Shown: piece after piece, positions 17,301 to 24,014 of the stretch
Position numbering within the stretch: position 1 is the first letter of the stretch
How the letters are laid out: the number at the start of each line of letters is the position of its first letter
Source of the DNA: Polynucleobacter campilacus
Lineage (GTDB): Bacteria; Pseudomonadota; Gammaproteobacteria; Burkholderiales; Burkholderiaceae
DNA: 64,000 nucleotides
Assembly: GCF_002206625.1 (NCBI RefSeq)
Contig: NZ_NGUP01000007.1
Coordinates: 1 to 64,000 of the forward strand
Direction of reading: 5' to 3'
Made by a program: the position numbers and the translations under genes
Notes under the pieces: generated by a model
Database searches by the model: none
The model's input: only the letters and a program-made list of their open reading frames with translations
Told to the model about the DNA's origin: nothing

Positions 17301-17423
17301 ATGAAAGATAACAGCGCAGCAACCTTGAAGAACAAAACTGGCAAGATGTACCTGATTGGAATCATTGCATTCTCAGGCTTGATTATCGGAATTACCTTTA
17401 TTAAATTCTTATTCTCAGTTTAA
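17301..17423 (+). CDS. Small single-span membrane protein (40 aa)
   Basis: A 40-codon ORF begins at ATG 17301, shortly after bchP, with a GGAA purine stretch a few bases upstream. The product MKDNSAATLKNKTGKMYLIG... has a charged N-terminus and one predicted hydrophobic helix (about 17-38). It is not a LH alpha or beta polypeptide: there is no His ligand in the span. Its end overlaps the convergent lipocalin gene by four bases. Function unknown. Position and spacing suggest co-transcription with bchP. Confidence 0.5.
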   Translation: MKDNSAATLKNKTGKMYLIGIIAFSGLIIGITFIKFLFSV

Positions 17424-18001
17424 TTTTGTGGTGTCAGGCTCAGCTGCTCAAGACTGAAGCCATTATTATTTACTAGGCGACCCAGTAGCGCCTGGTATTT
17501 GCTGGGCTCTACTGCCTTAGAGCGGGAGAGTATCCAGAGATATTTTCTGCCGGGGTCGCTCACTGCAGCCAATTGGTATTCGGGATCGATATCGATTACC
17601 CAGTAATCACCCCAGACCATCGGTAGAAAAGCCAGCCAATCTGGCGCAAAGCGTACCTCCAGAATTGGGGAAGTTGAAGCACCAATTTGCCTTGCGGTAC
17701 CCATGGCTTCGCCTTTACCCCCACCCTCAAATGTGCAGCGATTCGTGACGCTCACATTGCCATCTTCTTTGATCTTGTAGGTGGCATTGGTATCGGCAAT
17801 GCATTTTCTCTGAAACCAATTGGGAAACTTCGCAATCTCATACCAAGTGCCCTGATAGCGGGCAACATCTAATGAGGCAATCGTCTTGATAGGCGCTACT
17901 GGCTTTGGATCTGCCTGAGTCCCTTGTGCCGATTGAGCCATGGCCCAATTTTGTGAGCAGCAGAAAAGAAGCAAGCCAATAATGTAGTGATTTTTTCTCA
18001 T
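17420..18001 (-). CDS. Lipocalin family protein (Blc-like)
   Basis: The 193-residue protein has an N-terminal signal peptide (MRKNHYIIGLLLFCCSQNWAMA) and the bacterial lipocalin motifs YQGTWYEIAKFPNWFQRKC and a C-terminal YLWILSRS strand. Such proteins bind lipids or other hydrophobic ligands at the envelope. The Cys residues in the signal region do not form a clear lipobox, so a soluble periplasmic form is likely. It is the last gene of a leftward group bciB-nnrU-small lipoprotein-lipocalin with short spacers. Confidence 0.9.
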   Translation of the reverse strand: MRKNHYIIGLLLFCCSQNWAMAQSAQGTQADPKPVAPIKTIASLDVARYQGTWYEIAKFPNWFQRKCIADTNATYKIKEDGNVSVTNRCTFEGGGKGEAMGTARQIGASTSPILEVRFAPDWLAFLPMVWGDYWVIDIDPEYQLAAVSDPGRKYLWILSRSKAVEPSKYQALLGRLVNNNGFSLEQLSLTPQN

Positions 18002-20842: not shown

Positions 20843-20998
20843 TTACTTCTTTTTCTTCTTATCTGAATCTAGCCACTCATTGACATCAGGGAAGGCATCT
20901 TGCACTTCTCCCATAAATTCGCGAACCATGAAATATAGGCCAGCAATTAAGAGGGAAAAAACAAAGACCGATAGAAGGAGTAATGTTGTATTACTCAT
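20843..20998 (-). CDS. Small single-span membrane protein (51 aa)
   Basis: A 51-codon ORF not in the track. The product starts MSNTTLLLLSVFVF, has one helix (about 5-25), then an acidic stretch and five Lys at the end. Its ATG overlaps the stop of the next upstream ORF by four bases (ATGA), so it is part of the pucBAC-linked leftward transcript. No family recognised. Confidence 0.6.
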   Translation of the reverse strand: MSNTTLLLLSVFVFSLLIAGLYFMVREFMGEVQDAFPDVNEWLDSDKKKKK

Positions 20999-21183
20999 TT
21001 TTTACGATTCAATAATGCAGCGAGTTTGAAATAAATCCCAAAGCAAAATATGGAGGGTACCCATAGCGCTGTAAAGATGGATTGCTCTTTGTCCTGAACT
21101 ACAAACCATAAATAGGCAGAGGTAAAGAAAGAAATCACCACTGCCATGAGAATGAAGTAATCTGATCTTTTAAACATTTTCAC
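20995..21183 (-). CDS. Small two-span membrane protein (62 aa)
   Basis: The 62-residue product has two predicted helices separated by a short loop (FVVQDKEQS) and a basic C-terminus LLNRKK. It overlaps the ORFs before and after it by four bases each, a pattern typical of a coupled operon. It sits third behind pucC. No family recognised. Confidence 0.65.
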   Translation of the reverse strand: MKMFKRSDYFILMAVVISFFTSAYLWFVVQDKEQSIFTALWVPSIFCFGIYFKLAALLNRKK

Positions 21184-21416
21184 TCCTTCGCTTCGTTATT
21201 AAAATAATCTCCAATGCCATAGCCAACAGCGCTCAAAAGGCATCCCATGATAGCGCAGCTGCCCAATACGCGAATACCTGAAGAAAGACCAAAAGAAAAC
21301 AGATCTGCAGAGATGAAGTCCCACAGACTCAAGGTAATTAATATAAAACTAATTGAGCTAATGAAGAAGCCAAAAATAATGAGCGTCTTTTCGGCAAACT
21401 GGGAGATAGTAGTCAT
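21180..21416 (-). CDS. Small two-span membrane protein (78 aa) directly behind pucC
   Basis: The 78-residue product has two long hydrophobic segments (about 12-32 and 48-68) and a soluble acidic end. Its ATG is immediately adjacent to the pucC stop, so it is very likely translated from the puc transcript. It does not resemble LH alpha or beta chains, PucE or PucD as far as I can tell. Function unknown. Confidence 0.65.
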   Translation of the reverse strand: MTTISQFAEKTLIIFGFFISSISFILITLSLWDFISADLFSFGLSSGIRVLGSCAIMGCLLSAVGYGIGDYFNNEAKE

Positions 21417-22829
21417 TTAAGCAGCAGATTCTACAGGCTTTGTTGGCCATATGAAGTTGGTCATTGCGGCGATGGTAATCAAGAGCAGAATGATTTCTAG
21501 TAGATAGACACCACAGTAACCCGTTGCTGGATTATTGAGGTCGGCGCCGAAATAATTTCTGGAGGCCATACCAGCCAAAATATCCCGAAATATTCCTCCG
21601 ACACCAATGGCAATGCCTGCAGCAGTCGCTTGTACTGCTCCCCATGCACCTAAGGCTAAACCACTTTGATTTTCTGGGGCGTATTTCATGGTGGCAGTTA
21701 AAGTCCCATGACTAAATAGCCCATTACCAAATCCAATTAACACGACGCCCACAATAAAAATAAGTGTGCTGTTCAAAGGTGCCGCAATGATGACTAGCAT
21801 GAATGCCGGAATACCAATTTTGGCACCATTGCTAGCCATCTTAAAGGGGTCGTAACCAGCACTTAATACTTTGGACGCAATGCTAAAGCCAAATAAACAA
21901 CCAATGGCTAAAGTAGCCGTTAATACCGTGGTGGCGCTTACGCTCATGTTTAATAATTCACCGCCATAGGGTTCTAGCAAAACATCATTCATGCTAAAGG
22001 CCATGGTGCCAAAACCGACTGCAACTAAGCGGCGAATTGCTTGGCCACCTGCTTTAAAAGTTTCCCAAGATTGTTTAAAGTTTTGTTCTCTGGCTACTAA
22101 TGCTCGCGCGCGGGCTTCTTCACGACTTTCCTGCTTCCAAAGTGCAATGGCATTTAAAACGAGCGTGACTACAGCGCAACCTTGAATCACTTGTATTAAG
22201 CGACCTGGACTGTACTCTTCTAATAACTGGCCAAAAATGAGGGCGCTACCAATCATGCCGATTAATAGCATCACATACATCAGGCCAACAATATTCGCTT
22301 GGGATTTAGGCGGCGCAAGATCACAAGCCAAGGCAAGACCAACTGTTTGTGTCGTGTGAATACCAGCACCCACAAATAAAAATGCCAGTGCTGCAGCTGC
22401 TAATCCAATCCATGCTGGCGCTTCACTGGCATTGCCTGCACCAGCTAAGACGAGTAAAGCAAAAGGCATGATGGCAAGCCCGCCAAACTGAACCATGGTT
22501 CCCATCCAAATATACGGAACACGACGCCAGCCTAAAGCAGATTTATGAGTATCTGAGCGAAAGCCAATCAAAGCTCTAATGGGAGCAAAAATAATCGGCA
22601 AAGAAACCATGATCGATACCAGTGATGCGGGTACTTGTAGCTCAACAATCATCACTCGATTTAAGGTGCCCACTAGTAGCACTAGGGCCATGCCAACCGA
22701 TACTTGAAATAAGGATAGTCTGAGTAATCTACCGAGGGGTAATTCAGCAGAAGCAGCGTCTGCAAAAGGCAAGAAGCGAGGGCCTAAATTAGCCCAAGTA
22801 CTGATTATTTTTTGACCAAAACGATTCAT
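21417..22829 (-). CDS. pucC: Light-harvesting 2 assembly protein PucC
   Basis: A 470-residue, 12-helix PucC/BCH-family protein, strongly similar in sequence pattern to LhaA at 8432: PRFLPFADAASAELPLGRLLRLSLFQ, ALIGFRSDTHKSALGWRRVPYIW, GAWGAVQATAAG. Its place directly behind pucBA identifies it as PucC, required for LH2 assembly. A strong hairpin with a T-run lies between pucA and pucC, so pucC is probably expressed at a lower level than the antenna genes. Confidence 0.94.
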   Translation of the reverse strand: MNRFGQKIISTWANLGPRFLPFADAASAELPLGRLLRLSLFQVSVGMALVLLVGTLNRVMIVELQVPASLVSIMVSLPIIFAPIRALIGFRSDTHKSALGWRRVPYIWMGTMVQFGGLAIMPFALLVLAGAGNASEAPAWIGLAAAALAFLFVGAGIHTTQTVGLALACDLAPPKSQANIVGLMYVMLLIGMIGSALIFGQLLEEYSPGRLIQVIQGCAVVTLVLNAIALWKQESREEARARALVAREQNFKQSWETFKAGGQAIRRLVAVGFGTMAFSMNDVLLEPYGGELLNMSVSATTVLTATLAIGCLFGFSIASKVLSAGYDPFKMASNGAKIGIPAFMLVIIAAPLNSTLIFIVGVVLIGFGNGLFSHGTLTATMKYAPENQSGLALGAWGAVQATAAGIAIGVGGIFRDILAGMASRNYFGADLNNPATGYCGVYLLEIILLLITIAAMTNFIWPTKPVESAA

Positions 22830-22918: not shown

Positions 22919-23122
22919 TTATTTTTTTGCTGCTGGTGCCGCGGGTGCCATTGAGGTAGCGGCAGACTTTGTAGATTGACCACCCTCTAAAAAGGCTTTC
23001 ACCCAAGTTGTATTGTTTAGTAATGCTAAATGCACTGAAAAAGAACCAACTGCTACAGCGCCCAAAAACAGGGGAATGCCAACTGTTGGTCTAACCACTG
23101 TCCACATTTTTCCGTAGATCAT
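22919..23122 (-). CDS. pucA: Light-harvesting 2 alpha chain PucA
   Basis: LH2 alpha polypeptide. It aligns without gaps to classical B800-850 alpha chains from the N-terminus: GKMWTVVRPTVGIPLFLG, then the bacteriochlorophyll ligand His31 and TTW at 38-40. Residues 44-45, Tyr-Trp or Tyr-Tyr in B800-850 antennae, are Phe-Leu here, the pair found in blue-shifted B800-820 complexes. The C-terminus after EGG carries an Ala/Pro/Lys-rich tail. AAGGAG precedes the ATG. Co-transcribed with pucB 15 bases upstream. Confidence 0.96.
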   Translation of the reverse strand: MIYGKMWTVVRPTVGIPLFLGAVAVGSFSVHLALLNNTTWVKAFLEGGQSTKSAATSMAPAAPAAKK

Positions 23123-23137
23123 CTCAATCTCCTTTAA

Positions 23138-23281
23138 TTATTTCAACCAAGGTGAATAGATATAGGCAAGTAAGTGGGCGAGTGCTGCAATCATCCCAAA
23201 AAATTGCGTACCTTGAATGAGGTTGCGATGTAACTCTTCCGCTTCCTCAACACTCAGACCTGTAAGAGTGTCATTTGTCAT
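23138..23281 (-). CDS. pucB: Light-harvesting 2 beta chain PucB
   Basis: A 47-codon ORF absent from the track. The product shows the beta-chain pattern LSVEEAEELHRNLIQGTQFFG, then AALAHLLAYIYSPWL. His36 is the central bacteriochlorophyll ligand, His18 the cytoplasmic-side conserved His, and Trp45 the membrane-boundary aromatic. It pairs with PucA to make the LH2 ring. It is first in the leftward pucBAC operon, with a PpsR operator and a long inverted repeat upstream. Confidence 0.96.
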   Translation of the reverse strand: MTNDTLTGLSVEEAEELHRNLIQGTQFFGMIAALAHLLAYIYSPWLK

Positions 23282-23528: not shown

Positions 23529-23741
23529 TTGAGTAAAACTAGCCAGCGCTTTAGCACCATCAAACTGCTCTTTGAGATAGCCTGCGCTGCAGGTGGCTTT
23601 GGTATGGGGCTACTATTTGCCAAGCAGTTGGATTTAGGCGTCGTTCCTGGGGTGTTTATGGGTCTGATGGGGGCGATCTTCACCTTTATCCTTGCCCAGG
23701 GCATGACAGCCTTCATTTTTCGTATACTGAGGCGAGATTAA
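23529..23741 (+). CDS. Small two-span membrane protein (70 aa), TTG start
   Basis: The 70-residue product has two hydrophobic segments rich in Gly (GGFGMGLLF, GVFMGLMGAIFTFILAQG) and ends in basic RILRRD. The only start that keeps the N-terminus is TTG at 23529, with a weak GGAT upstream. It is divergent from pucBAC and shares its upstream region. It may be read through into the next ORF and hemA. No family recognised. Confidence 0.6.
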   Translation: MSKTSQRFSTIKLLFEIACAAGGFGMGLLFAKQLDLGVVPGVFMGLMGAIFTFILAQGMTAFIFRILRRD

Positions 23742-23777: not shown

Positions 23778-24014
23778 ATGAATAAGCAAGTTGAATCGAC
23801 CCCAGTAGATCCCAAAGTTAAAAGAACCATGCTGTGGCTCAAATTTGCCATTGTGGTGTTCCCAATAGCCTTAGTTGGTCAGGTCTGGATTCTGTATCAG
23901 GATTACTCATTGACCAATCTATTCTTCGTGCTGATCACGGCCTTTGCCCTGTATTCCACGATCAATTCGTATAAAAAATTTAAAGCCTACGAGGCTGCGG
24001 CTAAGAATCAGTAA
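23778..24014 (+). CDS. Small two-span membrane protein (78 aa)
   Basis: The 78-residue product begins with a soluble, charged segment, has two helices (about 20-38 and 46-64) and ends KKFKAYEAAAKNQ. An AAGGATAGGTA ribosome-site-like sequence precedes ATG 23778. It follows the 70-residue ORF by 36 bases. No family recognised. Confidence 0.6.
   Translation: MNKQVESTPVDPKVKRTMLWLKFAIVVFPIALVGQVWILYQDYSLTNLFFVLITAFALYSTINSYKKFKAYEAAAKNQ

Follow-up and report, generated by a model that had tools for sequence, protein, structure and literature searches.

What is the role of three short membrane proteins that are encoded directly behind pucC in Polynucleobacter campilacus, and do they belong to LH2 at all? 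The locus lies in a stretch of 64,000 nucleotides that was analysed as a whole and is here called the window (positions 1 to 64,000 of contig NZ_NGUP01000007.1, assembly GCF_002206625.1). It comprises the following features:

21180 to 21416, minus strand: module protein 1, 78 aa, two predicted transmembrane helices
20995 to 21177, minus strand: module protein 2, 60 aa from a conserved ATG (62 aa if read from the GTG at 21183)
20843 to 20998, minus strand: module protein 3, 51 aa, one transmembrane helix followed by a conserved V.EF and a charged tail
21417 to 22829, minus strand: pucC (context), PF03209, E = 1.4e-148, directly upstream of the module
22919 to 23122, minus strand: pucA, LH alpha polypeptide (context), PF00556, E = 2.7e-09
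23138 to 23281, minus strand: pucB, LH beta polypeptide (context), PF00556, E = 2.2e-09

An earlier note on this DNA had described three reading frames behind pucC with overlaps of zero or four bases, and these are indeed present, on the minus strand: the ATG of protein 1 follows immediately on the pucC stop codon, the GTG of the 62-aa version of protein 2 (20995 to 21183) overlaps the stop of protein 1 by four bases, and the start of protein 3 overlaps the stop of protein 2 by four bases (ATGA). The sizes given there held for the outer two frames (78 and 51 residues), while the middle one most likely encodes 60 rather than 62 residues, since nearly all relatives read start at a conserved MF..SD, which makes the in-frame ATG at 21177 the better model. 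The one or two helices attributed to each protein were borne out as well, as AlphaFold2 predicts a helical hairpin both for protein 1 (helices 2–31 and 47–77, pLDDT 81) and for protein 2 (helices 4–27 and 30–58, pLDDT 87), and protein 3 has one hydrophobic stretch. As to the neighbouring antenna genes, the pucB product (23138 to 23281, minus strand) passes the NCBIfam cut-off of the LH1 beta model pufB_517_ASD (65 vs. 61 bits); the adjacent alpha polypeptide resembles the LH2 type, and the LH2 label of the locus rests on this polypeptide together with pucC. Divergent from pucB and upstream of hemA lie two further small uncharacterised plus-strand ORFs with a hydrophobic stretch, of 70 aa (23529 to 23741; 73–96 % identity across puc-linked Polynucleobacter loci) and 78 aa (23778 to 24014; 77–92 %), which among the loci compared were not found outside puc-linked ones.

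The three reading frames behind pucC are real genes, far beyond what chance would give, and evolve under strong purifying selection with dN/dS values of 0 to 0.17: against puc-linked relatives, 0.08–0.17 was obtained for protein 1, 0.03–0.13 for protein 2 (60 aa) and 0.00–0.10 for protein 3. Protein 1 bears the motif LSSGIRV.G..AI.GCLLSA.GYG..DY, of which SSGIR...GCLLSA.GYG is kept in the family and the cysteine is conserved in 34 of 35 members. Protein 2 (MFK.SD.FI..AV..SF..S.Y.WF...D..QAIFTAIW.PSI..FGIYFK) is the most conserved of the three, with 20 of 60 alignment columns invariant and 62–95 % identity to members across Beta- and Gammaproteobacteria. In protein 3, F14, E27 and F28 are invariant in 38 members and the pattern F......G...T..EF is kept.

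Searches of Pfam, NCBIfam and the PDB with the window proteins and the family alignments (for protein 3, the NCBIfam search covered the 51-aa sequence of the window) matched no family above cut-off, all hits being sub-threshold and inconsistent, and Foldseek found no significant structural relative of the two-helix models of proteins 1 and 2. Relatives were likewise absent from viral and phage collections, and no description of the three genes was found in open papers on Polynucleobacter phototrophy, pucC or LitR. The lack of resemblance to known Puc proteins that had been reported from the sequence thus holds as far as the Pfam, NCBIfam and PDB libraries go, and the three families and their module are, judged by these comparisons, undescribed in the libraries and open papers searched. 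Being short membrane proteins of one or two helices whose genes accompany those for light harvesting, they are reminiscent of small antenna and core subunits (LH alpha and beta, PF00556, and other solved chains). They differ, however, in that none of the three matches PF00556, which pucA and pucB do, and in that no alignment column in any of the three families has a histidine in three or more members, i. e., a conserved ligand for bacteriochlorophyll was not found. Among chains of solved structure, there is no PDB match by profile for any module protein and none by fold for proteins 1 and 2.

In the species genomes of GTDB, a scan for protein 2 yielded at least 289 relatives. Of these, the best 80 stem from Beta- and Gammaproteobacteria, mostly from lake and sea genomes (with record titles including Polynucleobacter, Candidatus Methylopumilus, Burkholderiales, Methylococcaceae, Pseudohongiella, Wenzhouxiangella, and Microbulbifer), and the module loci among them are mostly located far from puc genes. 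When three further loci are added, the order protein 1, protein 2, protein 3 is complete in 81 of 83 loci, of the two exceptions, one runs off the end of its contig and the other has a stop codon within the frame of protein 1; the ATGA overlap of proteins 2 and 3 is frequent among module loci. The three genes are one conserved module that is inherited as a unit and not an appendix of LH2. Single-gene relatives of protein 2 (37–41 % identity, annotated as hypothetical) also occur on haloarchaeal plasmids of Halobaculum and Haladaptatus (L174, L175, L176), where the other two module genes were not found nearby. Weak matches in two genomes, which turned out to be a different protein or a flagellar locus (G200 and G211), and a match to protein 1 only with 36 % identity and one stop inside (G130/L054) were taken as chance.

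Within the genus, the module is confined to genomes able to use light by means of PucC or rhodopsin. The search encompassed 150 relatives. Of 91 genomes of Polynucleobacter, 23 carry the module (proteins 1 and 2 in exactly the same 23), adjoining pucC in 12 and elsewhere in 11. PucC-family genes are present in 38 and rhodopsin in 6 of the 91 genomes; 19 carriers encode PucC and four a rhodopsin without PucC, and all six rhodopsin genomes, these four among them, are carriers. In total, 23 of the 42 genomes with PucC or rhodopsin have the module as compared to none of the 49 that lack both (Fisher p = 2e-10, without correction for kinship), and it is lacking in 19 PucC-positive congeners. A search for the reaction centre was positive in 18 of 19 carriers with PucC (the genome without a match, G070, is 81 % complete) and negative in the four rhodopsin-only carriers as well as in the 19 light-negative Polynucleobacter genomes tested.

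The position behind pucC is of more restricted origin. A tree calculated from the three concatenated proteins unites the 14 puc-linked modules in a single clade (support 0.989), so that the linkage to pucC arose once, and this clade is nested in a clade of modules from phototrophic Polynucleobacter (support 0.989). The modules of rhodopsin-bearing Polynucleobacter (L165, L168, L173) are located in another part of the tree together with L166, from a genome (G576) that encodes a reaction centre but lacks rhodopsin; hence, at least two module lineages exist in the genus. According to this phylogeny, the module was recruited into the puc operon a single time and by a single Polynucleobacter lineage.

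Outside the genus, the link to light becomes patchier. Among 51 further carriers, 13 have a rhodopsin and two a reaction centre, one of them both, which leaves 14 with either and 37 with neither detected. Rhodopsin is still enriched as compared to a sample of the phylum (13 of 51 vs. 11 of 399), part of which may reflect the sunlit-water habitat alone. A role as partner of rhodopsin only was rejected, because most carriers have no rhodopsin and the module is missing from each of the 11 genomes with rhodopsin in the phylum sample. Carotenoid synthesis was considered as the common factor and set aside as well: crtI above cut-off is only mildly enriched (16 of 51 carriers vs. 60 of 399), and carotenoid synthesis is therefore not required.

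The gene neighbourhoods provide stronger evidence for a link to light outside the genus. Of 19 loci that make up a large clade of Burkholderiales, 17 have one or more neighbours from the following set: LitR-like MerR, fasciclin, PAS, FAD oxidoreductase, DUF3429, DPRP photolyase, BLUF, FolE, and UfaM-like CMAS proteins. As independent cases in other clades, a UfaM-like CMAS with a lipocalin is located near the module (L142, L145), blh (PF15461) stands beside it (L156, L162; in L156 also crtY and crtB, read from sequence), and a photolyase (L173), MerR with DPRP (L135), PAS with DPRP (L140) or BLUF (L106, L149) were found. When near (<3 kb) and far (>5 kb) genes were compared, fasciclin (9 proteins), PAS (8), DUF3429 (4) and FAD oxidoreductase (4) were biased towards the module and MerR was found 5 vs. 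3 times, counts that are not independent because one clade contributes most of them. LitR-type MerR, photolyase, UfaM and lipocalin genes are thus linked to the module in the large Burkholderiales clade as well as in individual loci of other clades, but not everywhere; several lineages have no light-related neighbour, in particular most gammaproteobacteria, whose module loci have varied neighbours, and the non-puc sites of phototrophic Polynucleobacter. The PAS protein upstream of the module in L134, L136, L148, L157, L161, and L164 has 132–160 aa and is LOV-like without the adduct-forming cysteine (GK(T/S)P.ILQG); its gene shares the strand of the module and stops some 40 nt ahead of protein 1, as does that of the 132-aa PAS protein of the Burkholderiales clade. 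A lipocalin gene is also present near the puc locus of the window (17420 to 18001, minus strand), and lipocalin genes were also found close to the module in loci unrelated to it (a total of 16 loci).

The closest known setting is the light-induced gene set under LitR/CarH (class II LitR) in Pseudomonas, where PhrB, UfaM, CryB, FolE, an SDR and an FAD oxidoreductase are induced by light under LitR control (PMC9758184). In Burkholderiales, the module is often found among such kinds of genes, and it probably works in the same physiological setting. None of the named members of the set, which the comparison covered, is a counterpart of the three proteins, and the window differs in that the neighbours of the module there are puc genes.

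We consider it most plausible, with a probability of roughly 0.45, that the three proteins form a small heteromeric inner-membrane complex, which the cell employs in the light to protect or adjust its energy-transducing membrane and which was recruited once into the puc operon. This reading takes up the fixed gene order with its coupled starts, the selection, the distribution by light within the genus and the repeated proximity to light genes; the biochemical action would conceivably be as follows. Together, the three proteins would build a single small hetero-oligomer that spans the inner membrane with about five helices; by the positive-inside rule, proteins 2 and 3 are predicted to have their charged tails in the cytoplasm. 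The complex would be made when the cell is lit, presumably by light-responsive control in several lineages and, in the window, along with LH2 by read-through from pucBAC and translational coupling. The module itself would not bind bacteriochlorophyll and would thus not be a pigment-binding antenna polypeptide; rather, it may help to keep the energy-transducing membrane intact or coupled, for instance by countering singlet oxygen, or by stabilising membrane complexes or regulating them. Within a single lineage of Polynucleobacter, the module would have moved behind pucC and would therefore now be made together with LH2.

More broadly and tentatively, it could represent an unrecognised three-component membrane complex for light-exposed or phototrophic bacteria, irrespective of whether these use bacteriochlorophyll or rhodopsin, i. 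e., an accessory shared by bacterial phototrophy and photoprotection whose core subunit has relatives even among the haloarchaea. As far as we found, no dedicated protein partner is known that is shared by these two unrelated light-use systems, bacteriochlorophyll reaction centres and rhodopsins, and within one freshwater genus the module tracks both. If confirmed, this would offer a common entry point to the question of how aerobic bacteria cope with light-driven membranes as well as a marker for light-adapted lineages, and three small uncharacterised families gain strong gene-neighbourhood leads.

A more general envelope or membrane module of aquatic bacteria, whose association with light would be merely ecological (sunlit water) and phylogenetic, is doubtful and yet keeps some probability, because in most carriers outside the genus no light-driven system was detected (only 14 of the 51 outside the main set have rhodopsin or a reaction centre). 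The varied gammaproteobacterial neighbours, the mild enrichment of crtI and the single-gene relatives of protein 2 in haloarchaea point the same way. Against this stand the distribution within Polynucleobacter, where 0 of 49 congeners without PucC or rhodopsin and 6 of 6 with rhodopsin carry the module, and the light-related neighbours in several module clades.

Similarly unlikely is an accessory complex of electron transport or the proton-motive force, for example, small subunits for an oxidase or NDH or an ion leak, that cells would require once proton pumping by light supplements respiration. Respiratory complexes typically contain small subunits with one or two helices, and the co-occurrence of the module, within a single genus, with two light-driven energy systems that are unrelated to each other would fit such a role. 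Many carriers are, however, without a detected light-driven system, no oxidase or NDH recurs as neighbour, and no PDB chain resembles the three proteins by sequence or proteins 1 and 2 by fold.

In contrast to the complex proposed above, the earlier note had taken the operon coupling to suggest that the proteins act with LH2 assembly or function, possibly as undescribed linker, assembly or regulatory subunits analogous to pucDE in position. The link to light implied by this survives, given that carriers in the genus always have PucC or rhodopsin and that light-response genes neighbour the module elsewhere, but a specific role with PucC or the LH2 ring is improbable. It is favoured by the zero-gap coupling to pucC in one Polynucleobacter clade and by the strong association of the module with PucC genomes within the genus. 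Yet the module occurs neither only nor generally with LH2 pucBAC: it is present in rhodopsin-only genomes without PucC or reaction centre, in many bacteria without a detected photosystem or rhodopsin, and in G003 and G025, which have a reaction centre and only two PucC paralogues that match those of photosynthesis clusters, i. e., no LH2-type pucC. Conversely, four carriers (G001, G046, G050, G078) have an LH2 pucC locus without the module, which is located elsewhere in the genome, and it is absent altogether where LH2-type pucC loci of 11 other congeners were read, and absent from the LH2-type pucC loci read in other genera. The linkage to pucC is an event of a single lineage; the lack of a histidine for bacteriochlorophyll ligation also argues against LH2 subunits. 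The likeness to the pucDE-like, pucC-distal small genes of purple bacteria lies in the position directly behind pucC and in the encoding of small membrane proteins; they are set apart here by genomic occurrence rather than by direct sequence comparison, as the trio of the window exists mostly outside puc loci.

The other LH2 loci read have either nothing or a different one-helix ORF of 37–46 aa behind pucC. The latter was seen directly behind pucC in two loci of Polynucleobacter (L025, L030) and one of another genus (L026), with sequences that begin MNVTGILLTAWVIVCLITIASMAKG... and VDEEIRVEIGQLLLLAWVVVCAMWLLNMF....

Finally, that the three frames are spurious ORFs or relics, as their shortness, their hydrophobicity and an in-frame stop in protein 1 of one relative (L122) might suggest, is refuted by the substitution pattern (dN/dS 0–0.17) and by conservation across Beta- and Gammaproteobacteria, and has next to no probability. 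This relative (L122, G070:C87) has a puc-linked module with an in-frame TGA in protein 1 and has lost the conserved ATG of protein 2, and its copy is decaying or misassembled.
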